A DNA stretch of 51,187 nucleotides from an uncultured Nitrospira sp. (GTDB lineage: Bacteria; Nitrospirota; Nitrospiria; Nitrospirales; Nitrospiraceae): contig CABVRZ010000034.1 in NCBI GenBank assembly GCA_902500775.1, positions 1 through 51,187 of the forward strand, given 5' to 3'. The position numbers and the translations under genes are program-made. The notes under the pieces were generated by a model. It did not search any database. It saw only the letters and a list, made by a program, of their open reading frames with translations, and was not told the DNA's origin. The first letter of the stretch is position 1. Every line of letters begins with the position of its first letter. Shown in pieces: positions 2,348 through 45,951 of the stretch.

Positions 2348-4825
2348 TTAGTTCTCGGGGGTGTCCTCCGACGTGGCGTCCTCTCGGTCGGCGGCCTCGG
2401 CCAATCTGGCAACTGCGACGACTCGGTCTCCTTCGCCATCGAGATCGAGAATGCGAACACCCTGGGTGTTCCGTCCGATTTCTCGGATATCATCAACCTT
2501 GCAGCGCAGCACTTTCCCCTGCGCAGCCATCAGCATGATCTGATCGTCATCTCGTACTTGAAGGAACCCCACGGCTAACCCGTTGCGCTCGGTGGTCTTG
2601 ACGCTGATAATGCCCTTTCCACCACGACCTTGCACTCGATATTCGCCCACCGGCGTCCGTTTGCCATAGCCGCCTTCCGTCACGGTCAGGATCGAGGTGG
2701 TCGAGTCTGGAGTCATGGTTTCCATCCCGATGACTTCGTTGCCCTCTTCGAGCGTGATCCCCTTCACACCATGCGCCATCCGACCCATCGGCCGCACTTC
2801 CTCTTCCTTGAATCGAATCGTAATGCCTTGTCGCGTCCCCAATAAAATTTCGCGCTGTCCATCGGTCAGCTGGACTCCGATCAACTTGTCACCGCCTTCG
2901 AGTCCTAACGCAATGATTCCGCCCTGCCTGGGGTTGCTGAACGCCGACAATTCCGTCTTCTTGATAATTCCTTTTTTCGTCGCCATCACGATATAGCGGT
3001 CATCACGAAACTCTTTGACCGGCAAGGTCGCGGTCACTTTTTCACTCCCGGCCAACGCAAGGAGATTGACGAGTGCTTTTCCTTTCGCGGACCGACTGGC
3101 CTCAGGAATCTCATGGACTTTCAGCCAAAAGACTTTCCCTGCATCGGTAAAAAAGAGCAACGAATCGTGGGTGGAGGCCGAAAAAAGCGTCTCGACGAAA
3201 TCCTCATCCTTGATACCCATCCCGATCTTGCCCTTCCCTCCACGTCGCTGAGCCCGGTAGAGGGACACGGCATTCCGCTTGATGTATCCGGAATGAGAAA
3301 TCGTGACGATCACTTCCTCCGCTGCAATCAGATCCTCGAGACTGATCTCGGCTTCTTCCTTAACGATCTTGGTCCGGCGGTCATCTTTGTATGTTTCACG
3401 AATCTCAGTGAGCTCGTTCTTAATGATGGTGCGCACCAACGACTCGCTGGCTAGCACGGATCTCAGATATTCAATCTGCTTGAGCACCTCCTGGTACTCT
3501 TCCACGAGTTTGGCCCGTTCCAGTTGCGTCAAGCGCTGCAGCCGCATATCGAGAATCGCGGTGGCTTGGATCTCCGTCAGGCCAAACTCCCGCATCAACC
3601 CGGCACGGGCTTCGTCAGGCGATTGCGACCGTCTGATGAGCGCAATGACGGCATCGAGATGATCAAGGGCGATCTTGAGCCCTTCCAGGATATGCGCCCG
3701 TTCCTCCGCCTTTCTGAGTTCGAAGGCGGTCCGTCGCACGACGACTTCACGTCGATGCTCGAGAAAATGATAGAGGATCTGTTTGAGCGTGAGGATCTCG
3801 GGGCGATTATTCACCAGCGCCAACATGATGACGCCGAAGGTCGTTTCGAGTTGGGTATGCTTGTACAGATTATTCAAGACCACCAAGGGAATTTCATTCC
3901 GTTTGAGCTCGATCACCACCCGCACCCCTTCGCGATCAGACGACTCGTCTCGGAGATCGGAGATGCCTTTGATACGATCGTCCCGGATCAAGTCCGCAAT
4001 TTTTTCGATCACTTTGGCTTTGTTGACTTGATAGGGAACTTCCGTAACGATCAGCCGTTCGCGCTCCGTGCGTTCATCGGTCTCGACCACGACTTTTGCC
4101 CGCAGTGTCAGAAGTCCGCGTCCGGTCTCATAGGCTTCCTTAATTCCGCCCATGCCATAGATGAAACCAGCCGTAGGAAAATCCGGCCCAGGGATCTTCT
4201 GCATCAACTGGGCGATCGTCACATCGGGATTCTCCAACAGGAGGAGCAAGCCATCGATGATTTCACGGATATTGTGTGTGGGAATGTTGGTCGCATAACC
4301 GACCGCAATGCCCCCCGCCCCATTGATCAAGAGGTTCGGAACTCTCGTGGGAAGCACCAGTGGTTCTTGCCGTGACTCGTCATAGTTCGGGCCGAAATCA
4401 ACGGTTTCTTTGTCGATATCGGCCAACATTTCTTCAGCCAGCTTTGTCATACGGGCTTCGGTGTACCGCATGGCTGCCGCTGAGTCTCCGTCCATCGACC
4501 CATAGTTGCCCTGGCCGTCCACGAGGGGATAGCGCATATTGAAGTCCTGCGCCATCCGCACAAGAGTGTCGTAGATCGCCGAATCCCCATGGGGGTGATA
4601 GTTTCCCATGATTTCGCCGACAATTTTTGCTGATTTCCGGTAGGCTCGATTGGAGGCCAAGCCCATTTCGCTCATGCCGAAGAGGATCCGCCGATGCACC
4701 GGCTTCAACCCGTCACGGACATCGGGCAATGCCCTCCCCACGATGACGCTCATGGCGTAATCGAGGTAGGAGGACTTCATCTCGTCTTCGATCGCGATAT
4801 GACCTAACCGTTCATCAGGGGGCAT
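2348..4825 (-). CDS. gyrA: DNA gyrase subunit A
   Basis: This is the breakage-reunion subunit of the A2B2 gyrase that introduces negative supercoils. The 825-residue product has the full N-terminal domain with the catalytic tyrosine in [10 protein letters not shown] (about Tyr121). The quinolone-binding segment [10 protein letters not shown] keeps the Ser and Asp that are typical of sensitive enzymes. The C-terminal beta-pinwheel carries the GyrA box QRRGGKG, and a second related GRGGKG repeat lies in a later blade. The GyrA box separates gyrase from topoisomerase IV. The gene follows gyrB on the same strand, separated by a palindromic repeat element (4836-4945). Confidence 0.98.
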
Positions 4826-4835
4826 CTAGTTCTCC

Positions 4836-4945
4836 ACGGACGCTGAAAATGGTCACCGGCTTCGTTCTCGGCTCGAAAAGATCCTCACCGTACCCCAGAG
4901 GGTACGCCTGCGGTCTTGCCGGATGATCATTTTGAGCATCCTAAT
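4836..4945 (+). repeat. palindromic intergenic element, copy A (gyrB-gyrA gap)
   Basis: The segment reads inward from GACGCTGAAAA through GGCTTCGTTCTCG, a central GTACC...GGGTACG palindrome, to ATCATTTTGAGCATCCTAA. The same order of blocks occurs at 15859-15984 and, inverted, at 17661-17785 and 21086-21212. This copy is the shortest and most diverged. It fills almost all of the gap between gyrB and gyrA, so the two genes may be transcribed through it. Confidence 0.75.
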
Positions 4946-4971
4946 AGTCAATGGACATCCGCAGCTACGTC

Positions 4972-7443
<2,472 letters not shown>

Positions 7444-7586
7444 CTACCTATTCCAGCCTCGTGATCCGAGGTCTTATTTCAATTTGAGTCATGTCTTTCG
7501 TCCATGGGGCATCACGGCGACATCGACGAGATGTGGGGCTACCCGGCAATGGAGGAGTTATACCCGTGAATACGTGCAGCATCCTG

Positions 7587-8720
7587 CTAAATCTTCACCG
7601 GCATGACAACGCACTTGAACCCGGGGCTCTCCGGCTCCTGAATGAGACAGGGACTCAGCGGCGTCTCCATCTGGAGCGAGATCGTCTCACCTTCCATCAC
7701 ACCGAAGACATCCAGCAGGTATCGAGCATTGAAGCCGGTCGTCAGGCTTTCTCCCTCGTAGCTGGCAGGCAATTCTTCCGTCGCTTCTCCGAAGTCAGGG
7801 CTGGCGGAAAACAGGGTCATCTTGCCGGACCCAAAGGAGAGCTTTACCGCGCTCGTCTTGTCTTTCGACAAGACCGAGACACGACGCAGGGCACTCTCCA
7901 AATCTGCCCGATTGACGCTGATGTTCTTGCCGCCATCTTTTGGGATGACCTGCTGGTAGTTTGGATAATTACCTTCCATCAGCCGTGACGTCAAAAGAAG
8001 ACCGCTTTTCCGAAAGATCATGAGATTTTTTGAGAATCCGATCAGCGGTTCCCCATCACCGCCCTCCTCCAAGAGATGGCGAATCTCGTGAGCGGCTTTC
8101 TTGGGAATAATCGCTTTGATCTCCTGGGGAACAGGTGTCGATTTGGTCCCAGCTTTGCCGACCTCCTGTTCCGCAACAGCCAGACGATGGCCGTCTGTGC
8201 CAACCAACCGAAGGGATGTCTTCTTCTCCGTCACGATCAAGGTAACCAGGAGTCCGTTCAGGATATACCGGGCATCGTTGTCTCCGGCGGCAAAGAGCGT
8301 CTTTCGAATCAATTCGAGAAAGCCGTCTCCGGCCAGCGGCGTTAACCCCTCTCGCTCGATCGCCGGTAATGCCGGATAATCGGAGCTGGGAAGGCCGACA
8401 ATTTTAAATTGGCTTCTCCCGGCCTGAATCGTCGTCCAGTTATTATCCGTGGCCGTCAACTCAATGTCACCAGCTGGCAACTCCTTCACAATTTCAAAGA
8501 GTTTCCTGGCGGAGATGGTGACGCCTCCGGTGGACAACACCGTCGCCTTGTACAGACCTCGCATACCAAGCTCAAGATCTGTCGCGACAATCTCCACTCC
8601 ATCCTGCCTAGCCTCCAGCAGGATATTCGACAGAATCGGCATGGTGTTGCGTTTTTCCACGACGCCTTGCACACGCTGAAGGCCCGTCAATAACTCATCT
8701 CGTCCGATTCGTACTTTCAT
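7587..8720 (-). CDS. dnaN: DNA polymerase III beta subunit (sliding clamp)
   Basis: The ring-shaped processivity clamp tethers DNA polymerase III to DNA. ATG at 8720 is chosen over one five codons upstream because a GGGGGAG ribosome binding site lies at the correct distance; this gives 377 residues. The three-domain clamp is recognisable from the N-terminal block (KRNTMPILSNILLEA), the ATDLELGM motif, LVGTDGHRLA in the second domain, and the C terminus (KCVVMPVKI). It lies 23 bp after dnaA, so the two form an operon. The stop codon TAG begins the sequence TAGCAGGATGCTG, which is also the outer end of the palindromic repeat family of this window. Confidence 0.97.
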   Translation of the reverse strand: MKVRIGRDELLTGLQRVQGVVEKRNTMPILSNILLEARQDGVEIVATDLELGMRGLYKATVLSTGGVTISARKLFEIVKELPAGDIELTATDNNWTTIQAGRSQFKIVGLPSSDYPALPAIEREGLTPLAGDGFLELIRKTLFAAGDNDARYILNGLLVTLIVTEKKTSLRLVGTDGHRLAVAEQEVGKAGTKSTPVPQEIKAIIPKKAAHEIRHLLEEGGDGEPLIGFSKNLMIFRKSGLLLTSRLMEGNYPNYQQVIPKDGGKNISVNRADLESALRRVSVLSKDKTSAVKLSFGSGKMTLFSASPDFGEATEELPASYEGESLTTGFNARYLLDVFGVMEGETISLQMETPLSPCLIQEPESPGFKCVVMPVKI

Positions 8721-8743
8721 GGAATGCTCCCCCATCGACGCCG

Positions 8744-10087
8744 CTAACTGCGAAGAATCTGTTCTTTTAATGATTCGATCGTCGTCTGCAATCCTGTATC
8801 AGTCTCCTTAGCCTTGGTAACCTGACGGCAGGCATGAATAATCGTCGTATGGTCTTTTCCACCGAATTGCCGTCCAATCTCGGGGTATGAGGCGTCCGTT
8901 AGCTCGCGACAGAGATACATGGCAATCTGCCGGGGATGCACCAGTGTCTTGCTCCGGCGCCGAGATTTCAGTTCCGCGAGCTTGACATGAAATTGAGTGC
9001 AGACGGCTTCCTGGATGTCGTCCATCGCGACTACCTTTTTCTTGTCTCCGATAAGATCTCGCAGAACATTTTTGGCGAGGTCGAGACTAATGACTTGCCC
9101 AGTCAGCGAGGCATAAGCTCCGAGGCGAACGAGACTCCCCTCAAGCTCTCGAACATTGCTCTTCATAGTGATCGATAAAAACTGGATGACGTCTTCAGGC
9201 AGTTTGACTCCTTCATCCTCAGACTTCTTCCTGAGAATGGCAATCCGCGTTTCAACATCCGGGGGCTGCAAGTCGGCAATCAAACCCCACTCGAATCGGG
9301 ATCGTAGACGCTCCTCAATATCAGGCATATCTTTCGGAAACCGATCGCTCGACAGCACAATCTGCTTATGGCCTTCGTACAGCGCATTGAACGTGTGGAA
9401 AAATTCTTCTTGCGTCCGCTCTTTCCCCATCAGGAATTGGATATCATCGATCATGAGCATATCGATGTGTCGGTAGCGCTTTCGGAGATCTATCATTTTG
9501 TCATAGCGTATCGAGTTAATGACCTCGTTCGTGAATTGTTCTGTCGTTAAATATGCAATTCGGAGGTCCCGCTGTTCAGCGACATGATTCCCAATGGCGT
9601 TTAAGAGATGGGTCTTTCCAAGTCCAACGCCCCCGTAAATAAACAACGGATTGTAGGTTTTGCCCGGTTGTTCTGCCACGGCCATACAAGCGGCATGAGC
9701 AAACTGATTCCCAGCCCCAACGACGAAATTTCTGAATGTATACTTCGGGTTGAGGAGAATGCCACGCCGTGGTTTTGGCGGTACTTGACCCTTCCCTCCT
9801 TGTGTTGCCGGTTGTTGGTCAGTAGGAGACGGGGCCGTTTTCTCGCGGACCGTGAACGCTACAGCGAGAGATTCACCTGCGCCCGCTATCGTCACTGCTT
9901 CAGTAAGGAGCGCTCCATAATGTGTATCTAACCACTCTCCGAAGAATTTATTGGGCACTCCGATGTACACAGTTGAATTTTCAACCCGATCAACTTGGAC
10001 GGGCAAGAACCAGGTATCAAAAACCTGTTTAGGAACCTTTTGCTGAATATAATCAAGCGCTTCATCCCATTCAATCTCTATACTCAT
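8744..10087 (-). CDS. dnaA: chromosomal replication initiator DnaA
   Basis: DnaA binds DnaA boxes at oriC and melts the origin. ATG at 10087 (MSIEIEWDEAL) is preferred to the ATG three codons upstream because GAGGGTG sits about 10 bases before it; the product is 447 residues. Domain III has the AAA+ Walker A (GGVGLGKTH) and Walker B (MLMIDDIQF) motifs. Domain IV carries the helix-turn-helix signature GKDHTTIIHACRQV that contacts the DnaA box. The gene reads away from the AT-rich candidate origin at 10.1-10.4 kb and is followed closely by dnaN. Confidence 0.98.
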   Translation of the reverse strand: MSIEIEWDEALDYIQQKVPKQVFDTWFLPVQVDRVENSTVYIGVPNKFFGEWLDTHYGALLTEAVTIAGAGESLAVAFTVREKTAPSPTDQQPATQGGKGQVPPKPRRGILLNPKYTFRNFVVGAGNQFAHAACMAVAEQPGKTYNPLFIYGGVGLGKTHLLNAIGNHVAEQRDLRIAYLTTEQFTNEVINSIRYDKMIDLRKRYRHIDMLMIDDIQFLMGKERTQEEFFHTFNALYEGHKQIVLSSDRFPKDMPDIEERLRSRFEWGLIADLQPPDVETRIAILRKKSEDEGVKLPEDVIQFLSITMKSNVRELEGSLVRLGAYASLTGQVISLDLAKNVLRDLIGDKKKVVAMDDIQEAVCTQFHVKLAELKSRRRSKTLVHPRQIAMYLCRELTDASYPEIGRQFGGKDHTTIIHACRQVTKAKETDTGLQTTIESLKEQILRS

Positions 10088-10096
10088 AGATTCCAT

Positions 10097-10407
10097 TCAC
10101 CCTCTATACACAGGATTACTCACATTTGTGGATAACTCTTATTTTCTACTTAATTTTCAGTGTAAAGAAGGCCGCTCAATACCATGTCTAGCCACAGTCT
10201 GTCGAGTTGATCTCTCCCTTAGTTTAATCTATCAACGAACTACTCACATGCTTTTACATCACTATACAGAGGGTTTCCACAAGGTTATCCAATTCAAAGT
10301 TTTAAAATTCTTTCAAATTTTTCAACTATCTCTAGACTATCCCCTCCATACACCTCATTACTCCTACTCCGACGACGACGAATTTTCTTTATTACAGAAC
10401 ATCGGAG
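10097..10407. other. candidate chromosomal replication origin (oriC)
   Basis: This 310-bp gap upstream of dnaA is visibly richer in A and T than its surroundings. It contains a perfect DnaA box in inverted orientation (TGTGGATAA, 10127-10135). Several near matches also occur: TTATCCAAT at 10285-10293, GTTTCCACA at 10273-10281, and CTATACACA overlapping the dnaA leader. A run of A/T-rich sequence at 10290-10330 would suit a DNA unwinding element. The dnaA promoter must also lie here. Only one box is exact, so the assignment rests mainly on position and composition. Confidence 0.75.
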
Positions 10408-10629
10408 TTACAGAGTAATAACGCGCTGACTTACCAAGAGAACCTCTAGTAACTGCTTAAATGACAGCGGAGTACCCTTCACTAAAGAGCAATCAGCTGA
10501 ACTCTCGAGTACCTTCCCTGCCAAAGGAGCTTTTTCAATGGCAATGACAGTTCCTACCTTTGTTTTCGAATAAAGAAACGGAGAAACCACTTCCAATGGA
10601 GATCGAGATAAATAGACTATCGAACTCAC
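10408..10629 (-). CDS. DsrH/TusB-like small protein
   Basis: This is a weak match to the DsrH/TusB family, the third member of the DsrEFH/TusBCD sulfur-relay complex. The 73-residue product starts at GTG 10629, which has a GGGGG ribosome binding site; an in-frame TTG at 10647 overlaps the preceding stop codon. It begins IVYLSRSPLEV and ends with the LVKGTPLSFKQLLEVL...VITL pattern typical of the family C terminus. The single cysteine (SSADCSLVKG) is near the position used by DsrH. It follows the two DsrE-type genes directly, which supports the call. Confidence 0.55.
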   Translation of the reverse strand: MSSIVYLSRSPLEVVSPFLYSKTKVGTVIAIEKAPLAGKVLESSADCSLVKGTPLSFKQLLEVLLVSQRVITL

Positions 10630-10643
10630 TAGAGACCCCCGAT

Positions 10644-10985
10644 TCAAAAAACGAGTGTGCAGTCCATCGCCTGAATTACAGCAGCCACACTATCCTCTGA
10701 TTCACACCGGGCATAAAATTCAGCACTTAACGTTGTCATATCAAACGTTTTGGGGAGTATGAAGGGAATCTCGAGCTGCTCAATAGACGGAAGATACTTT
10801 TCAAGAATATCAATATCAATAATGTCATCCGTGTCGTTCGTCAGCAAACGAACAGCCTCACCGAGCAGAATGACGGTTGTATTATGAGATCCGGCGACAA
10901 GGCCAAGAGCAATCCGTAATGCCTCAACAGGTCTATGTGTCGTCCGTGGATCTTCTTGAATAACGACAGCGATGTGTTTTGCCAC
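10644..10985 (-). CDS. DsrE/DsrF-like family protein
   Basis: The 113-residue protein has the DsrE/F-like alternating pattern: HIAVVIQEDP at the N terminus, then a helix EALRIALGLVAG, then a strand and loop TTVILLGEAVRLL. This matches the middle subunit (DsrF/TusC type) of sulfur-relay trimers. The cysteines are near the C terminus (YARCES and MDCTLVF), not in the usual central position, so sulfur-carrier activity is uncertain. It lies 17 bp after the DsrE-like gene and meets the DsrH-like gene, so the three appear to form one transcript. Confidence 0.65.
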   Translation of the reverse strand: MAKHIAVVIQEDPRTTHRPVEALRIALGLVAGSHNTTVILLGEAVRLLTNDTDDIIDIDILEKYLPSIEQLEIPFILPKTFDMTTLSAEFYARCESEDSVAAVIQAMDCTLVF

Positions 10986-11002
10986 GCGAGATTCTTACAA
11001 TC

Positions 11003-33713: not shown

Positions 33714-34049
33714 AGCATCATTTCGTGTTGGAGAAGCGACTGTAGGAAATCGTCGAGTCGGTAACAACGCAAATATCTGGCCAAGTTTTGTCGCGAGTTC
33801 TGAATCGCGATGAGTGAGGAACTTGTAGAGCCGAATATGTAGTGATTCAGGATGTCATGTCCTCGTGCTTGTTGGGGCGATGCACCGATCCGTGCCATGC
33901 TCCAACCTACCTTCTGGCAAGCATTGACAAGTACTTAAAGGAACAGGACAATCCTGAACCAGATGCGGTTTGCCTCGTCAAATTGTTCCTGTGAGCAGAG
34001 TTATTGGTTAGAGTGTCCAAACAGAGTTTTTCATGCAAGCACAAACACA
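33714..34049. other. intergenic stretch upstream of the HEPN-like operon
   Basis: No gene with a family resemblance is seen. A minus-strand frame (33650-33898) runs through a hairpin and is not convincing. This stretch should contain the promoter of the two-gene operon that starts at 34050. It looks richer in A and T than the flanking core genes. Confidence 0.4.
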
Positions 34050-34778
34050 ATGAGCAATGCCTGCAATGATCATTACAAACAGCTTCATGCAGAGTCGGGT
34101 GCTGTATTAGCTGAATCATTCGCTGGCTCACGTGCTGAGGCAATGGCAAAGAGTCATGCATTCATTGGCGATCTTGGCTTGTGGATTGTTGAACTTGGTA
34201 AGCGACCTGAAGTCCCAGTGCTCCAGGCAACACATAGAGAGTATCAGTTCGCGCTTTTGGCTTTATCGGCTGGGCATTATCGCGCAGCATTCTCGGCGCT
34301 TCGCCTGACTCTTGAGCTCGGTTTTGCCGCTGTGCAATGGTCAGCCAATGAACGAGAATTGCGAGAATGGCTCCGGGGCCAGCGGGATACCAATTGGTTG
34401 TCCCTGATTGATGCGGAGAAGGGTATCCTCTCCAAGCAGTTCGTTCTTCTCTTTTCTGAAAGTCTAGCGGATGAAGCTGCTCAGTATCGTTCCGCAGCAG
34501 CAGTTTATCGAGAATGCTCTGAGTATGTCCATGGTAATGCACACACTCACCGTTCAATACCCGAACAGCTCACGTTCGACGACGCTTCATTCGAGGCATG
34601 GCAAAAGAAAGCATCCGTGGTTCGTCTAACCATCTCCTATGCCTTGGCGGCTAGATATCTATGCGATTTCGATGCAGCGAATCGGTCACATCTGGAGAAT
34701 ACGCTAATGGACCAACTTGGTCATTCGGGTGGGGTAAGAGCGCTTCTCGGAGGACCGTCTGAGGTGAGCAATGGCTGA
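34050..34778 (+). CDS. all-alpha protein with a HEPN-like RxxxxxxH motif (putative effector)
   Basis: From ATG 34050 the product has 242 residues; a longer frame starts at 33963. It is predicted to be all helical. The segment REYQFALLALSAGHYRAAFSALRLTLELGF, then WSANERELREWLRG, and then YRECSEYVHGNAHTH resembles families with HEPN folds. R154 to H161 gives R-x6-H, the catalytic spacing of HEPN ribonucleases. The stop overlaps the next gene's start by 8 bp, so the two are translationally coupled. The HEPN reading is an inference from motif and helix pattern; other all-alpha scaffolds are possible. Confidence 0.5.
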   Translation: MSNACNDHYKQLHAESGAVLAESFAGSRAEAMAKSHAFIGDLGLWIVELGKRPEVPVLQATHREYQFALLALSAGHYRAAFSALRLTLELGFAAVQWSANERELREWLRGQRDTNWLSLIDAEKGILSKQFVLLFSESLADEAAQYRSAAAVYRECSEYVHGNAHTHRSIPEQLTFDDASFEAWQKKASVVRLTISYALAARYLCDFDAANRSHLENTLMDQLGHSGGVRALLGGPSEVSNG

Positions 34779-36384
34779 ATTTTTTTATCGGACGGAGGAT
34801 ATCAAGCCTGAAGAGGTGGCAAAGTACTTCGTCGAGACGAAGCGCGATCGCGAGATCATTAATGCTCTCAAGGCTCGGAATCCGGTGGTCCTTGCTGGTA
34901 GTCGAGGAGTCGGTAAGTCTTTTCTTTTGCGTGTAGCTGAATCAGAGCTACTCGCCGAATTCGAATCTCAGAGAGCATTGCCGGTATATGTAAGTTTCAA
35001 TCGCAGTTCCCTCATCAACACTACGGACCCACAACAATTTCAACATTGGATGCTTGCGCGTATTTGCGCACGCATCGTGCGTACGCTTAATACTGTTGGG
35101 TTGAGTGTGGGTAAATCTCGAGCATTGAGTATTCTAAGGGGAGATTCTGCAGACCCAATCCCTGATTCTGAAACGCCTATAGAGAGATTGGTTCATAGTT
35201 TTGAGGAATCGTGGAAAGGGGAACCAATCACCATTGATTTGTCTTCGCTGCCCACCTTAGACGATTTTAGAGATGCGGTAGAAGATCTTTGCAAGGATGA
35301 TAATATCACGCGCATAGTCGTGCTCATTGACGAGGCTGCGCACATACTTCTTCCTGAACAGCAACGACAGTTTTTCACCTTGTTCAGGGACCTGCGTTCG
35401 CCCTACCTTGGCTGTAAGGCTGCAGTCTATCCAGGTGTCACCTCTTACGGGGATACGTTTCAGCCATTGCACGATGCAACCGTGCTTTCTTTTGACCGGG
35501 ACATTCTTGGTGCTGATTACGTCGGAACGATGCGAGAGATTGTTGAGAAACAAGCAGAAAGTGCAACTTTGGAGGACATCGCGCGTAACGATAAGAACTT
35601 CACACTTCTCGCGTACGCAGCCAGTGGAAATCCGAGGATCTTGCTGAAGACTCTTGCGCGTGCGCCTCGACTCAGCGCTACGCAGACAAACGATGTTGTG
35701 CGTGAGTACTACCGGAATGACCTCTGGTCTGAACATTCAACACTTCCGGAGAAGTATGCTGGACATCAATACCTGATAGATTGGGGACGGCAGTTCATTG
35801 AAGGTGCTGTACTTCCAGATCTGCAAAAGAAAAACGAGCAGTACTTGGAGCAAGAGCAGAAGTCCACATGTTTCTTTTGGATACATCGTGATGCTCCACA
35901 GCCTGTGAAAGAGGCGCTCAAGTTATTAGCCTACAGCGGGATTGTCACCGAGCATGCCACTGGAATTCGAGCAACACGAAGCGAAGTCGGCTCGCGTTAC
36001 GCTGTAAATCTCGGTGCGTTAATAGCGCAGGAGGGTATACCTACCAGTACAGGTCTGCGCATAGCTAGAAATCTCACACCAAAACGAATGAGTGAGTTCG
36101 GGGCCAATCATTCTATATATCAAAGCCTGCTCTCTGCCGTCCCAACATTCGCGGAGCCGAGCGTAGGAGTCGTACTAAAGCAGCGGTTAGCTAAACCATT
36201 AAACGTCCTAGATATCACTGAGTGGCAACTTACAAGATTACAGAAACTTGAATTAAAAACAGTTGGTGATGTGTTGCTAGCGAGTGAGAGTGAGCTTCAG
36301 ACACTGTCGTATGTGGGGGAGAAGAGATCTCGACGGATTCGAAATGCGGCGCTCGCTGCTGTATTTGAGTACCTGTCTGGATGA
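34771..36384 (+). CDS. AAA/STAND-type ATPase with C-terminal helix-hairpin-helix domain
   Basis: The 537-residue protein has a P-loop (GSRGVGKS, residues 43-50) and a Walker B strand (RIVVLIDEAAHIL, Asp187-Glu188). A sensor-like segment ASGNPRILLKTLAR follows at about 285-300, as in ORC/STAND ATPases. A winged-helix-like middle region follows. The last roughly 60 residues (ITEWQLTRLQKLELKTVGDV and onward to GEKRSRRIRNAALAAV) resemble a helix-hairpin-helix or RNA polymerase alpha-CTD-like fold that could bind DNA. It overlaps the upstream HEPN-like gene by 8 bp. This pairing of a switch ATPase with a small helical protein is the form of many anti-phage systems; no known named system is recognised. 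Confidence 0.7.
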   Translation: MAEFFYRTEDIKPEEVAKYFVETKRDREIINALKARNPVVLAGSRGVGKSFLLRVAESELLAEFESQRALPVYVSFNRSSLINTTDPQQFQHWMLARICARIVRTLNTVGLSVGKSRALSILRGDSADPIPDSETPIERLVHSFEESWKGEPITIDLSSLPTLDDFRDAVEDLCKDDNITRIVVLIDEAAHILLPEQQRQFFTLFRDLRSPYLGCKAAVYPGVTSYGDTFQPLHDATVLSFDRDILGADYVGTMREIVEKQAESATLEDIARNDKNFTLLAYAASGNPRILLKTLARAPRLSATQTNDVVREYYRNDLWSEHSTLPEKYAGHQYLIDWGRQFIEGAVLPDLQKKNEQYLEQEQKSTCFFWIHRDAPQPVKEALKLLAYSGIVTEHATGIRATRSEVGSRYAVNLGALIAQEGIPTSTGLRIARNLTPKRMSEFGANHSIYQSLLSAVPTFAEPSVGVVLKQRLAKPLNVLDITEWQLTRLQKLELKTVGDVLLASESELQTLSYVGEKRSRRIRNAALAAVFEYLSG

Positions 36385-40622: not shown

Positions 40623-41557
40623 GATGATTTGTGGTCCTTTCCATGTGAGGGACGTGGTATTCGCGCTCGGGGATGGGCCCGATCGTAGACGGCGAGCAGT
40701 TGATCCATCGCCACATGTGTATATTTTTGGGTGGTACTCAGGGAGGCATGGCCGAGTAGCTCCTGGATCGATCGCAGATCCGCTCCTTCGTCGAGCAGAT
40801 GAGTCGCATACGAATGCCGGAGGGCATGAGGACTCACCCCTCCGCTCACCAGGCGACTGGAATATCGGGCGACCATCTTGGCAACACTTCTCGTCGTGAG
40901 CCGTCCACCCCTATGATTCAAGAACATTGGGGACGAAGGATGCTGGATGCGAGGAGTGGGCTTCAAGGACTTCCGATACTCACGGATGGCCTGCAACGCC
41001 ACATCTCCGATCGGGACGACTCGTTCCTTGCGGCCCTTTCCTCTCACACTCACGATGCCGTCCGCTTCGTCGAGGTCCTGGAGATTAATCCCGACGACTT
41101 CGCTCACTCGCGCGCCGGTCGAATACATCGTTTCCAGCAGGGCACGGTCACGAAGAGAGAGGGGTGATGGCCCGGAGGGAAACGTCATGAGGGCTGCCGC
41201 ATCATCCTTGGTGAGTACGCGCGGGAGGCGCTTGGGCAGTCTTGGGCTTCTCAGTGTTTCAGTCGGATTGGTTTTCACGAGCTCTTCACGGAGGAGGAAG
41301 CGGAAGAAACTGCGTAGGCTCGCCAGCTTTCGCGCGAGGGACGTGGCCTTCTCGCCTTGGCGATCCAACGAGTGGAGATGAGCACGAATATCGTCGCTCG
41401 TGATTCGGTCGATGCGAAGCGGCGAGGAGTCCCTCTTGGTTTTTCTGAGAAACGTGGCTAGCTGCTGAAGGTCGGAGCGATAATTGCGGATCGTCTCTGG
41501 GGACGCGTAGCGTTCGACCTGTAGATACATTACGAAAGCCTTGATTGCGTCTTCCAT
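40619..41557 (-). CDS. xerC: tyrosine recombinase XerC/XerD type
   Basis: This 312-residue tyrosine recombinase has a SAM-like N-terminal DNA-binding domain and a catalytic domain. The catalytic Arg lies in [11 protein letters not shown], the His-x-x-Arg in [11 protein letters not shown], the second His in [10 protein letters not shown] and the nucleophile Tyr in KYTHV. The trmFO-xerC-hslV-hslU order is the conserved housekeeping arrangement, so a chromosome-dimer resolution role is much more likely than a mobile element. It overlaps trmFO by 28 bp. Confidence 0.92.
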
Positions 41558-42846
41558 GCGTCAAAATCCTCAAGGGCTCGCTGACTCAGTGCACGGCGCT
41601 TCTTCTCCTTGTCCCTTGGTGAGTTCGCCAAGGGCGGGAACAGGCCGAAATTGGTGTTCATCGGTTGGAAATGGCGAGGATCCGATGAGGCGACGTGGGA
41701 AACCAGGCAGCCATGCGCCGTCGTGGGAGGAGGCGAGATCAGCGGATGTCCCGCGAGAGCGCGCGAGGCGTTGATCCCCGCGAGGCCACCCATGGCTGCC
41801 GACTCTGTATAGCCCTCCACGCCAACGAGCTGCCCGGCAAAGAAGAGGGAAGCTCGAGCCTTGAATTGCAGGGTATTGAGCAGCAGCTGAGGTGAATTGA
41901 TAAAGGTATTGCGATGCAGGCTGCCATAGCGAAGGAATTCGGCTTGCTCGAGGCCTGGAATCATACGAAAGACGCGCTTCTGCTCCGGGTACGTGAGTTT
42001 GGTTTGAAAGCCGACTAAGTTGTAACAGGTGCGATGGATATTTTCTGTCCGCAATTGCACGACCGCCGCCGGCTCCACGCCAGTTCGAGGATCTTTCAAG
42101 CCCACCGGTTTCATCGGACCGAACTGCATTGTCTGGCGGCCGCGCTCGGCTAGCACTTCAATCGGCACACAGGCCTCAAAATAGGGTGTCTTCTCAAACT
42201 CCTTCGGCTGGACCTTCTCTGCTGCCATCATGGCGTTGTAAAAAGCATTGTACTGGTCTGCCGTCATGGGGCAATTCAAATAATCATCTCCGCCTTTGTC
42301 ATAACGAGAGGCGCGAAAGACGATGTCCATGTTGATCGAATCGGCGTCGACGATCGGCGAGATGGCGTCGAAGAAATACAGGTGCTGTGATTTGGTGGCA
42401 GCGCGGATGGCTTGAGAGAGCTTATCTGATGTGAGTGGCCCAGTCGCGATGATGCAGAAACAGTCACTGGGTATCTCCGCGATCTCTTCGTGCAGGATGC
42501 GGATATTCGGATGGCCTTCCAGTGCGCGGGTGATGTGCTGTGAAAAGACATCACGATCCACGGCCAGCGCGGATCCTGCCGGCACTCTAGCCTGCTCCGC
42601 CGCGGCGATGATCAGTGAGTTGAGCTTCCGCATCTCTTCTTTGAGGATGCCGGGCGCATTGAGTGGATCAAGAGAACCGAGCGAATTCGAGCAGACAAGT
42701 TCGGCCAGTCCACCAGTTTTGTGCGCCTTCGTCATCTCTTTCGGACGCATCTCGTAGAGCGTAACCTTGGCGCCACGATTAGCCGCCTGCCAGGCCGCTT
42801 CCGACCCAGCCAGACCTCCGCCTACGATGACAATGTCGTCACGCAT
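41530..42846 (-). CDS. trmFO: folate-dependent tRNA (uracil-54) methyltransferase
   Basis: TrmFO makes 5-methyluridine at tRNA position 54 using methylene-tetrahydrofolate and FAD. ATG 42846 (MRDDIVIVGGG) gives 438 residues; an upstream ATG at 42885 is less likely. The FAD-binding glycine motif GGGLAGSEAAWQ is at the N terminus, followed by CSNSLGSLDPLNAPGILKEE, which is characteristic of the family. The last 28 bp overlap the start of xerC, so the two genes are coupled. Confidence 0.96.
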   Translation of the reverse strand: MRDDIVIVGGGLAGSEAAWQAANRGAKVTLYEMRPKEMTKAHKTGGLAELVCSNSLGSLDPLNAPGILKEEMRKLNSLIIAAAEQARVPAGSALAVDRDVFSQHITRALEGHPNIRILHEEIAEIPSDCFCIIATGPLTSDKLSQAIRAATKSQHLYFFDAISPIVDADSINMDIVFRASRYDKGGDDYLNCPMTADQYNAFYNAMMAAEKVQPKEFEKTPYFEACVPIEVLAERGRQTMQFGPMKPVGLKDPRTGVEPAAVVQLRTENIHRTCYNLVGFQTKLTYPEQKRVFRMIPGLEQAEFLRYGSLHRNTFINSPQLLLNTLQFKARASLFFAGQLVGVEGYTESAAMGGLAGINASRALAGHPLISPPPTTAHGCLVSHVASSDPRHFQPMNTNFGLFPPLANSPRDKEKKRRALSQRALEDFDAWKTQSRLS

Positions 42847-43034
42847 GTACTTGGAACTTCCAATAGTTGGAGAGTGAAGGCGCATTGTACGAATCGATTT
42901 TTTGCTCTGTCAAGGAAAAGGGCTGGTGAACTCCTGGGAGACCAGAGTTGTCCTGTTGGGGTCCTTGCCTTAATCTGGCGAACCAGTAGAATGCACCGCC
43001 ACGTAGCTGTCCGCGTAGTGGGTGTAGGTGTTGT

Positions 43035-45668
43035 ATGACTGCTAGTGACAAACCTCTTCAAGCCTTTGTCTCTTCCACGTTCATCGACCTGAAGGATCAT
43101 CGTGCTCATGTGATTCGTTCCCTACGGAATGCGGGGTTCTCTGTTGATCCGATGGAAAACTGGACGGCAGATAGCGATGAGCCCAAACAGTTTTCTCAGG
43201 ATCGCCTCAATGGCTGTGACCTCTGTGTGGTGCTGATCGCCTTCCGACGGGGATTCGTGCCGGATGGTGAAACCCTCAGCATCACGCAGATGGAGTACGC
43301 GGCGGCGCTCAATCGGGGCGTGGAGGTCTTGGTGTATCAGCTCGATGATAACGCCAAGTGGTGGGCGAAATATGATGAACGGGAGAAAGATCCTGCCGTG
43401 CAGGAATGGCGTGGTAGCCTTGGCAAGAAACACGGAGTGGAATTCTTTACCGATGATCCTCGCTCCATCGACATGACCGGTGCGTTGGGCCGATGGCTGG
43501 CAAAGAAAAGACCGAGTCGGTCTGAGTCGGAAAAATTTGTGCGGCTGGACTGGCCGGATGGTAAGTCGCCCTATCGGGGGTTGCAGTGGTTTACCCCGGA
43601 GTATGCGCCCTTGTTCTTCGGGCGTGATCGTGAAGTGGACGAGCTCGTCGGCAAGATGAGCGAGCCGGGCGGCCGTGTACTGCTCGTCATTGGGGCGTCG
43701 GGGTCAGGAAAATCATCCGTGGTGGAGGCGGGAGTCTGGAAGGCTCTTCTCAAAGAAGGGCGATTGCCTGGAAGTACTCGGTGGAAGTGGCAGCGGATTC
43801 AGCCCAGCGACGGCGACAGTCCCGGTGATGCGGTCGCTCGCGGACTGAAAGAAGCATTCCAATTGGCTGCTCGCCCAAAAGTGACGGACCGCGCCGCGCT
43901 TTGCGATCTGCTCTTACGACATCTTAACCAAGGTGAAGAATTGATCCTGTTCATCGATCAATTTGAGGAGTTGTTCACGAGCGGCTTCAACGAACCGGAC
44001 ATTCAGAGTTTTCTTGAGCAGCTGATCGGCACAGCACAGGACCAGACTAACCGGCTCAGAGTCGTGGTCACAATCAGGAGCGAATTCCTCGGCAAACTGG
44101 AAGCGTACAACTCCACGCTAAATCTCCTCAACAGCCCCTACCGCCATCATCTGGGGCCCGTATTGCCACGGATGCTGCAGGACATGATCGAGAAACCGGC
44201 TGAGGCCATCGGCTACACGTTTGAGCCTGGGCTCGTCGAGCGGATCTTGAATGACACTGGGCAAGAGCCGGGTGCCCTTCCGCTCCTCGCCTATGCTCTC
44301 AAGCAACTCTTTGAGACACGGAAGGGGCGCACGTTCACGATCGACGCCTATAACGCCATGGGCGAGGTGGTTGGCGCGATTGCGAAAAAAGCCGATGACG
44401 TTTTGTCAGGGTTATCCAAAGAGGTACGCGGCGCATTTGATGCCGTGTTTGCCGAACTCGTCCACGTTGAACGAGAGCGTCCCTCGACGCGAAGCCGTGC
44501 CCTCCTCTCTCATTTCAGTTCGGATCAAGCCGCCGTGCAGCTTATCGAGGCACTGGCAGGTCATGATTGCCGCATCCTGGTGACGAGCGGGAGTGGGCAG
44601 GAGACCATCGTCGAGGTGGCCCATGAAAAACTCTTCTCGGCCTGGCCCAAGCTCAAAGACTGGCTCGACAAGAGTGGGGAAAACTTACGGCTGATCGACT
44701 ATGCCGAGGAGGCGGCGCGGCAATGGGATGAGACCGGTGGTCATCTCGCTGAACTGTGGCGGAGGGAACGGGCTGACGCAGTGAAACGCGCGCTGACACG
44801 ATTCAACAGGACTTCATCACGCACACTGCTCACGCTGCTTGAGCCACAGACGATGCTCATCGAGAGACTCGATGACGCATCGCTGTCACACCAAGACCGT
44901 CTTTTGATTGGCCAGAAGTTGGCCGAATTTGGCGACACACGGCCTGGCGTCGGCGTGAAGGACGGTATCCCCGATATCGTGTGGATCGACATCCCCGGAG
45001 GTAGCATCACATTGGAGAAAGTCGATCATCTGTTTGAGGTGAAACCGTTCCGCATCGCCAAATATCCGATCACCAATGCGCAGTTCGAGGCGTTTCTCAT
45101 CGCAGAGGACGGCTATCGAAATGAGGAGTGGTGGAAAGACATCGAACAGAGTGAAGAGGCTGATCATCCGAGCTGGCAGGAACCCAATGCCCCTCGCGAA
45201 ACAGTCTCCTGGAACGAAGCCGTTGCCTTTTGTCGGTGGCTGAGCGCCAAAGCCCCCAATCCGGGAACCAGCATTCGTCTTCCCACCGAGTGGGAGTGGC
45301 AGTTGGCGGCGACAAGTGGATTCCCCCAACGTGAGTATCCTTGGCAAGGCGGATGGGATAGCTCTCGATCCAATAGCAGCGACAGTCGGCTCAATCGAAC
45401 AACTGCGGTCGGTATGTATCCACGGGGTGCCACTGAGCAGGGTGGGCTGGATATGGCGGGCAATGTGTGGGAATGGTGCCTAAACGAGTACGACAATCCT
45501 GAACAGCCGAAGGCGATGCAGGTCAACAAGAAGGGCGGCCGGCGCGTGCTCCGTGGTGGTTCCTGGTACAGCAGACCGGAGAACCTGCGTGTGTCGAACC
45601 GGGACGGGGCCAACACCGTCTCCCGGGACTTCAACCTGGGGTTCCGTCTCGTTCAGGACATTCCCTAA
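43035..45668 (+). CDS. DUF4062-STAND NTPase-FGE/C-type-lectin fusion with a DGR-like variable tail
   Basis: The 877-residue protein has three parts. DUF4062 (about 5-160, with AFVSSTFIDLKDHR and SITQMEYAAAL) is found in conflict and signalling proteins. The STAND ATPase (about 175-620) has the PYRGLQWFTPEYAPLFFGR entry, the P-loop GASGSGKS (220-227) and Walker B ILFIDQFEELF. The C terminus (about 645-877) is an FGE-sulfatase/C-type-lectin fold, with LPTEWEWQLAA, DMAGNVWEW and LRGGSWY. In its last part (residues 845-867, 45567-45635) most codons are NNC at sites where such proteins vary, the trace that adenine-specific DGR mutagenesis leaves. No reverse transcriptase lies in the window. A ribosome binding site (AGGTG) precedes ATG. 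Confidence 0.85.
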   Translation: MTASDKPLQAFVSSTFIDLKDHRAHVIRSLRNAGFSVDPMENWTADSDEPKQFSQDRLNGCDLCVVLIAFRRGFVPDGETLSITQMEYAAALNRGVEVLVYQLDDNAKWWAKYDEREKDPAVQEWRGSLGKKHGVEFFTDDPRSIDMTGALGRWLAKKRPSRSESEKFVRLDWPDGKSPYRGLQWFTPEYAPLFFGRDREVDELVGKMSEPGGRVLLVIGASGSGKSSVVEAGVWKALLKEGRLPGSTRWKWQRIQPSDGDSPGDAVARGLKEAFQLAARPKVTDRAALCDLLLRHLNQGEELILFIDQFEELFTSGFNEPDIQSFLEQLIGTAQDQTNRLRVVVTIRSEFLGKLEAYNSTLNLLNSPYRHHLGPVLPRMLQDMIEKPAEAIGYTFEPGLVERILNDTGQEPGALPLLAYALKQLFETRKGRTFTIDAYNAMGEVVGAIAKKADDVLSGLSKEVRGAFDAVFAELVHVERERPSTRSRALLSHFSSDQAAVQLIEALAGHDCRILVTSGSGQETIVEVAHEKLFSAWPKLKDWLDKSGENLRLIDYAEEAARQWDETGGHLAELWRRERADAVKRALTRFNRTSSRTLLTLLEPQTMLIERLDDASLSHQDRLLIGQKLAEFGDTRPGVGVKDGIPDIVWIDIPGGSITLEKVDHLFEVKPFRIAKYPITNAQFEAFLIAEDGYRNEEWWKDIEQSEEADHPSWQEPNAPRETVSWNEAVAFCRWLSAKAPNPGTSIRLPTEWEWQLAATSGFPQREYPWQGGWDSSRSNSSDSRLNRTTAVGMYPRGATEQGGLDMAGNVWEWCLNEYDNPEQPKAMQVNKKGGRRVLRGGSWYSRPENLRVSNRDGANTVSRDFNLGFRLVQDIP

Positions 45669-45876
45669 CCCTGTGCCCTTTGTCCTTTGACCCTTTGCCT
45701 CTGATTCCGTGGGGTGCATGTCGTCCTTCGAAAATCATGGAGCTGGGAGGCGCGCCTGCGACGGTTCCTAAGGTCGTGTGAGAAATTCGATGAGTTGGGT
45801 CGGAACATTCTCCGCGTTGACTGCTCCCAAGGTGCAGTGCTAGAGTTTGCCCTCGTTTCGGACCACTTCTTAAGTC
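45669..45876. other. noncoding stretch between the STAND gene and tRNA-Val
   Basis: About 200 bases with a pyrimidine-rich start that has three CCTTTG-type repeats (about 45677-45703), and nothing else that I recognise. A plus-strand frame from 45714 runs through the tRNA and is not a gene. Confidence 0.4.
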
Positions 45877-45951
45877 GGGCGATTAGCTCAGTGGTAGAGC
45901 GCTTCCTTCACACGGAAGAGGCCACAGGTTCGATACCTGTATCGCCCACCA
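45877..45951 (+). tRNA. tRNA-Val (CAC anticodon)
   Basis: A 75-base cloverleaf: acceptor GGGCGAT/ATCGCCC, D arm GCTCAGTGGTAGAGC, anticodon stem CTTCC/GGAAG with loop TTCACAC (anticodon CAC, reading GTG), and T arm ACAGG-TTCGATA-CCTGT. The ACCA end is encoded. Confidence 0.97.

Follow-up and report, generated by a model that had tools for sequence, protein, structure and literature searches.

The stretch of DNA analysed here (the window, 51,187 nucleotides) is a contig of a 4.53-Mb genome of an uncultured Nitrospira, which is 99.7% complete. It carries an intact open reading frame that starts with ATG and encodes a protein of 877 amino acids, in which an N-terminal DUF4062 domain, an nSTAND1 NTPase and an FGE-sulfatase domain follow one another in a single chain (Table 1). 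Each of the three Pfam matches exceeds its curated cut-off, so that the DUF4062-STAND-FGE fusion that a preliminary description had read from the letters alone is real at the level of domains. The STAND motifs are intact, their conservation being judged in 23 aligned sequences, the window protein among them, and an AlphaFold model of the whole protein, built with 41 aligned sequences, reached a mean pLDDT of 88.4. The nearest named protein relatives come from Nitrospira MAGs and are 59-73% identical.

Table 1. Features of the DUF4062-nSTAND1-FGE locus in the window, with the basis on which each was placed.
Feature	Position	Strand	Basis
DUF4062-nSTAND1-FGE gene, 877 aa	43035..45668	+	ORF and Pfam
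DUF4062 (TIR-like), residues 9-91, predicted NADase effector	43059..43307	+	Pfam E 9.7e-14
E87 codon, predicted catalytic Glu	43293..43295	+	KpSwz alignment column; Glu in 23/23 homologues
nSTAND1 NTPase, residues 179-568	43569..44738	+	Pfam E 2.8e-97
Walker A (K226)	43692..43718	+	K226 kept in 23/23 homologues
Walker B-like segment (D308)	43941..43967	+	D308 kept in 23/23 homologues
FGE-sulfatase / C-type-lectin-fold sensor (putative), residues 653-873	44991..45653	+	Pfam E 1e-44
DGR variable region (VR), part alignable to template repeats (TRs)	45536..45656	+	83% to G111:C47 TR
Codons 845-868, hypervariable positions	45567..45638	+	codon-position differences, 14 genes
CCCTTTG-like repeated tract after the VR, possible homing-site mark	45669..45697	+	common to non-orthologous VR genes
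Extent of the accessory insertion against empty trmFO/tRNA-Val sites	42931..45787		homology breaks with G062

How did such a gene come to lie at this place? Its upstream neighbour, which runs divergently, belongs to the GIDA family and is compatible with trmFO (41530-42885), and downstream is tRNA-Val(cac) (45877-45951). At 14 loci of relatives trmFO, the tRNA-Val gene, a lipoprotein-like gene and a TPR gene adjoin with nothing inserted, and the distance from trmFO to the lipoprotein gene is about 310-485 bases there against 3.1 kb in the window; these 14 come from 20 fetched loci, a number that includes the window, and the other five had no trmFO or no lipoprotein gene in the stretch. When the window is aligned with G062, whose site is empty, homology breaks off at 42930 and starts again at 45788. 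Read from the sequence, the gene is therefore an inserted accessory gene, as had been supposed from its solitary position between trmFO and a tRNA gene. The site is occupied in three genomes, namely that of the window, G084 and G069, and in G069 it is filled by a 46% homologue whose DUF4062 is of a different subtype. There is no support for integration into the tRNA gene, which is intact and begins 89 bases beyond the point where homology with the empty site is regained. A phage origin was also rejected (13 phage records match at E<=1e-10, none covering 80%), and so was a plasmid origin (150 plasmid records match at E<=1e-20, and the one that covers 80% does so at 36% identity). PADLOC gave only weak hits and none of its models recognised the putative receptor, nor was a known defence gene recognised in the ten neighbouring genes scanned. 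Elsewhere in the window, a low-GC segment at 33963-36384 holds an ORC-CDC6-like ATPase adjoining a 271-aa protein without a Pfam match, possibly an accessory or defence pair, and dnaA, gyrB and gyrA at 2351-11000, by a 42% GC stretch at 10-11 kb with a change of sign in GC skew, likely mark the replication origin.

The gene is spread in a patchy manner: 28 of the 175 genomes of the family match it at E<=1e-60, not all of them with the full architecture. Its parts are also found in other combinations. The homologues L108, L111, L114 and L116 have STAND domains that are 74-77% identical and DUF4062 domains with only 23-26% identity, two DUF4062 subtypes occur on the nSTAND1-FGE chassis, bDLD3, TIR or SEFIR takes the place of DUF4062 in nSTAND1-FGE genes that are more distant, and DUF4062 is found with NACHT-FGE as well. 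Such exchange of parts at both ends would be expected of a receptor-effector chassis.

The most informative part of the protein is its tail. In the alignment of Nitrospiraceae homologues a hypervariable stretch lies between the motifs GGSW and GFRL, inside the C-type-lectin-fold domain and near the C-terminus, and most of its variable codons end in C. Over codons 845-868 of 14 genes, pairwise differences per site are 0.479, 0.467 and 0.269 at the first, second and third codon positions, whereas in the FGE body of the same genes they follow the usual order (0.250, 0.195 and 0.489). These 14 were taken from 20 genes after leaving out L039, which is not from Nitrospiraceae, L116 and L120, which have another type of tail, and L114, L126 and L129, in which the VR has changed in length; the frameshifted L127, L128 and L131 stood outside the set. 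The VR of L114 (L114:1387-4152), a Nitrospira homologue, is longer by roughly 20 residues.

Over 121 bases the window VR departs from its closest TR, that of G111:C47, at 21 positions, and 17 of the 21 fall on the 34 adenines of the TR (Fisher p 3.2e-8), while none of the 17 adenines in the VR itself is a difference. The excess at adenines holds against all 11 TRs, which come from ten genomes: among the other ten, p lies between 1.3e-8 and 1.6e-5 in nine and is 0.026 for the TR of G045, where only 70 bases can be compared. As a control, the FGE body of the window gene was compared with those of 18 other genes (L039 was left out of the 20, and of the other 19, L116 and L120 gave no alignment of at least 95 bases), and the mismatch rate was 0.274 at adenines and 0.277 elsewhere. 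The variability of the tail, surmised in the preliminary description, thus carries the signature of a DGR, and on this evidence the tail of the window gene is a DGR variable region, a statement that is safer by far than the receptor reading given below. In the 96-base core of the VR, 14 of 16 differences are at TR adenines and 64 of the 66 non-adenine bases of the closest TR, which belongs to another species, are retained, although FGE bodies differ at about 31% of their bases on average (14 genes); this suggests either that the VR was last written recently or that its non-adenine bases are under constraint. A tract of at least two CCCTTTG-like units, placed after the stop codon, stands at 28 of the 37 VR ends in the fetched loci, against 4.9% of shuffles, and no such unit follows the four TRs looked at. 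The tract is a candidate for a homing-site mark. A downstream hairpin is a feature of known DGRs.

Where, then, are the templates? With the window VR as a query, VR-like DNA was found in 33 of the 175 family genomes, including adenine-rich TRs that adjoin RTs. In G045, G037, G111 (C100) and G018 a homologue of the same domain order, DUF4062-nSTAND1-FGE, comes first in a cassette that continues with a bAvd-like gene and then an RT and a TR, and Pfam confirms target, bAvd and RT in the cassettes of G045 and G018, the two of these that were scanned; the domain order, for which a homologue search had been proposed at the outset, is present in DGR cassettes of four Nitrospiraceae genomes. Two further cassettes, in G111 (C47) and G064, have TIR-nSTAND1-FGE targets, so that DUF4062-nSTAND1-FGE is the target in four of six. 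When each VR of the six is compared with its own TR, 110 of 113 differences are at A, with three one-base gaps counted. The TR of G045 is shorter and its VR has the identical deletion, which is best explained by copying. L039, a betaproteobacterial DUF4062-nSTAND1-FGE gene, likewise comes with an RT and has a TR from which it differs at 18 positions, all of them A. A clear TR was present at 11 of 80 homologue loci in a screen of 89 FGE ORFs. Of the four DUF4062-nSTAND1-FGE targets that have their RT in cis, three (L195:1952-4708, L196:1718-4552 and L199:1750-4542) show a one-base deletion in the VR, different in each, that puts the tail out of frame; errors of retrohoming, errors of assembly or selection against self-reactive receptors might each account for this.

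What would the two ends of the protein do? In structure comparison by VIA-align, the modelled FGE part matches 2y3c, the variable protein of a Treponema denticola DGR, over 212 residues (Z 25.0, rmsd 2.6), which bears out the C-type-lectin-like fold that had been assigned to the C-terminus. At the other end, residues 1-175 match a sole group of entries among PDB sequences, the DUF4062 domain of KpSwz (E 8.8e-10), and this phmmer match covers residues 5-124 only, the remaining protein being nSTAND1 and FGE. The DUF4062 part was folded separately, the structure comparison of the whole model being dominated by the FGE part; this model of residues 1-175 (pLDDT 80.6) aligns with the TIR/nucleoside-hydrolase group, including nucleoside-deoxyribosyltransferase folds, with Z scores of 12.9 for DNPH1, 12.2 for RPV1 TIR and 11.4 for human SARM1, and the KpSwz structure was not seen among the matches listed. 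According to passages of PMC13174449, DUF4062 forms a family of TIR-like NADases, some of which act against phages, abortive infection by KpSwz requires E97, and the structure was solved as the E97A variant from residue 15 onward. Since E87 of the window protein aligns opposite an Ala of the deposited sequence, we infer, numbering included, that E87 is the counterpart of the catalytic E97, and the DUF4062 domain of the window protein is a predicted NADase effector.

Putting the two ends together, we consider it probable that the gene encodes a single-chain STAND immune receptor with a lectin-fold sensor written by a DGR and a DUF4062 NADase as its effector, an idea for which sequence and comparison both give good support. 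The C-terminal lectin-fold domain would display the hypervariable loop, and this loop would bind a molecule of an invader, probably a phage protein. Upon binding, the nSTAND1 ATPase would switch and oligomerise, as the biology of STAND proteins suggests. The N-terminal TIR-like DUF4062 domains would thereby be brought together to hydrolyse NAD+, and loss of NAD+ would stop or kill the infected cell, both steps being drawn by analogy with KpSwz. The trigger of KpSwz is not transferable in the same way, because its portal-binding domain differs from the sensor of the window protein.

It is here that the genome of the window becomes important, because it seems to have a target and no writer. Within this genome PF00078 found no RT (0 matches), the DGR-type RT of G018 as a protein query found 0 matches at E<=1e-15, the best candidate for bAvd has E 0.107, below the cut-off, with stops inside, and the TR used as a DNA query found, besides chance-level hits, only two VRs, that of the window (E 3e-29) and that of a broken paralogue on contig C11. 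A complete DGR in the window genome is thus rejected, with no RT, bAvd or TR detected, and for the same reason ongoing diversification there is not supported and the window gene is an orphan DGR target. The paralogue (G000:C11:47218-49932, L100) has the same domains and a VR-like tail and is broken into several frames; the genome also encodes two more nSTAND1 proteins (L101:2728-5205 and L102:3592-7707), of which one gives two TIR_2 matches and the other contains WD40 repeats. The expectation that the specificity of the protein could be changed therefore holds in part: the tail was written by a DGR, but in this genome it may be frozen. Two origins of the orphan state can be envisaged, namely that the DGR was lost and the specificity became fixed, or that the gene came in with a VR already written elsewhere, in a different strain or genome.

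The window genome is not alone in this respect. A DGR-type RT is present in 16 of the 175 family genomes (E<=1e-87). Such an RT accompanies the VR-like DNA in 13 of the 33 genomes that have it and not in the other 20, and in the subset of 22 genomes of higher quality (completeness >=90%, contamination <=5%) the numbers are 10 and 12; these counts of orphans are upper bounds, since some VR-like hits are perhaps TRs and drafts can miss an RT. The closest TR also differs between orthologues: it is that of G111:C47 or G089 for the window gene, G018 for L112 and L132, G065 for L111, and G111:C100 for L105 and L121. Moreover, VR-like DNA can lie at several unlinked sites in one genome, for example with three matches in G107 and four in G108.

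A narrower form of the receptor reading holds that the DGR was lost long ago, so that the window gene is a receptor of fixed specificity subject to normal mutation. We give this a little less than an even chance: the failure to detect RT, bAvd and TR in so complete a genome, and the lack of a DGR-type RT in more than half of the higher-quality genomes with VR-like DNA, speak for it, while the near-perfect retention of non-adenine TR bases in the VR core makes the writing look recent unless those bases are constrained, which speaks against a loss of long standing. On a population scale, the same observations on RT-less genomes and on orthologues whose best matches are different TRs lead to a tentative proposal, which we regard as rather unlikely, of a shared repertoire: a minority of Nitrospiraceae with RT, bAvd and TR would write the receptors, the written receptors would spread by insertion and recombination, and non-writing genomes would keep frozen 'memory' alleles coupled to a suicide effector that depletes NAD. 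Or, an RT and TR of the same population, carried by a mobile element or missed by the assembly, may still rewrite the window VR in trans. For remote STAND/CLec targets in Thiohalocapsa such diversification in trans has been argued (passages of PMC10907252), and the unlinked VR-like sites, as in G107 and G108, would suit it; it is nevertheless improbable for the window, since HMM, protein and TR DNA searches were all run on a genome of this completeness.

That the FGE part is instead an enzyme that makes formylglycine or a sulfoxide, with DUF4062 and STAND as regulators, appears very unlikely to us. EgtB, human FGE (Z about 23) and ToxD (Z 27.7) are indeed among the closest solved folds. In an alignment with Streptomyces FGE (6muj/2q17), however, the first of the two cysteines that we take to be catalytic there, which comes after GGSY, is replaced by Ser and the second falls in a gap, so that formylglycine chemistry is not expected; the VR overwrites the active-site loop, where a DGR writes random residues; and no sulfatase gene is present in the ten neighbouring genes scanned. 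An intact FGE site accompanied by sulfatase genes had been named beforehand as the sign of formylglycine formation, and the window gene has neither, so that we reject this function. Finally, that the variation of the tail reflects no more than ordinary divergence, or a decaying gene under relaxed selection, is scarcely credible: some homologues are broken (L010, L013 and the paralogue on C11), but the window ORF is intact, and the adenine bias, the fixed third codon bases and the unbiased FGE-body control all run counter to decay.

The orphan DGR-written receptor, if this is what it is, joins two recent findings, that DUF4062 is a TIR-like NADase and that DGRs diversify STAND/C-type-lectin proteins. 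One intact gene of 2.6 kb would offer a receptor with a defined predicted effector, a catalytic residue and a variable loop, and with these parts in one gene the idea of a DGR-written sensor that triggers cell death upon antigen binding is directly testable. Nitrospira play a key part in the nitrification of soils and wastewater. Are receptor alleles made by a retroelement shared beyond their makers? This question is raised by the orphan state, which was seen in 12 of the 22 genomes of higher quality that have VR-like DNA.

To our knowledge, the sensors of known Avs proteins, for example TPR repeats, are not written by retroelements. The tripartite plan of effector, STAND and sensor is nonetheless the same in Avs and bacterial NACHT proteins as in the window protein, and the plan and in part these sensors are described in passages of PMC10907252. 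Closer are the STAND NTPase-FGS conflict systems of 2021, which, in the passages of PMC8195603 at hand, likewise have an N-terminal effector, nSTAND1 (named there) and a C-terminal FGS of C-type-lectin fold, are often linked to a DGR RT and a four-helix accessory protein nearby or elsewhere, and were proposed as sensors of invaders; unlike in these systems, the effector here is DUF4062, which PMC8195603 does not name, and the window copy has no DGR in its genome. The STAND/CLec targets of Thiohalocapsa (Dore et al., 2024; passages of PMC10907252), called putative antigen sensors there, also combine nSTAND1 and FGE with a VR in the tail. They differ in their N-termini, which are EAD8, TIR, peptidase or uncharacterised, while the window protein has a fused DUF4062 and a host without RT. 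Swarozyc (KpSwz; Osinski et al., 2026, preprint; passages of PMC13174449) shares the N-terminal DUF4062 with a catalytic Glu, tested there as an NADase and antiphage effector, and differs in having a winged/HTH portal-binding domain, which the window protein lacks, and no STAND or FGE; retroelements, FGE and lectins are nowhere mentioned in PMC13174449. DUF4062 is not mentioned in the conflict-system papers of 2020 and 2021, the main text of a global survey of DGRs (PMC8144416) does not contain 'Nitrospir', such targets are not described in the passages of PMC10907252 and PMC3521204 consulted from the literature that mentions Nitrospira and DGRs, and a literature search for orphan or trans VRs gave no match. 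Effector-STAND-FGS systems with DGRs are thus already published (PMC8195603 and PMC10907252, in the passages cited), and what appears to be new, within the literature searched, is the DUF4062 effector in DGR-written receptors together with the orphan VRs of Nitrospiraceae.
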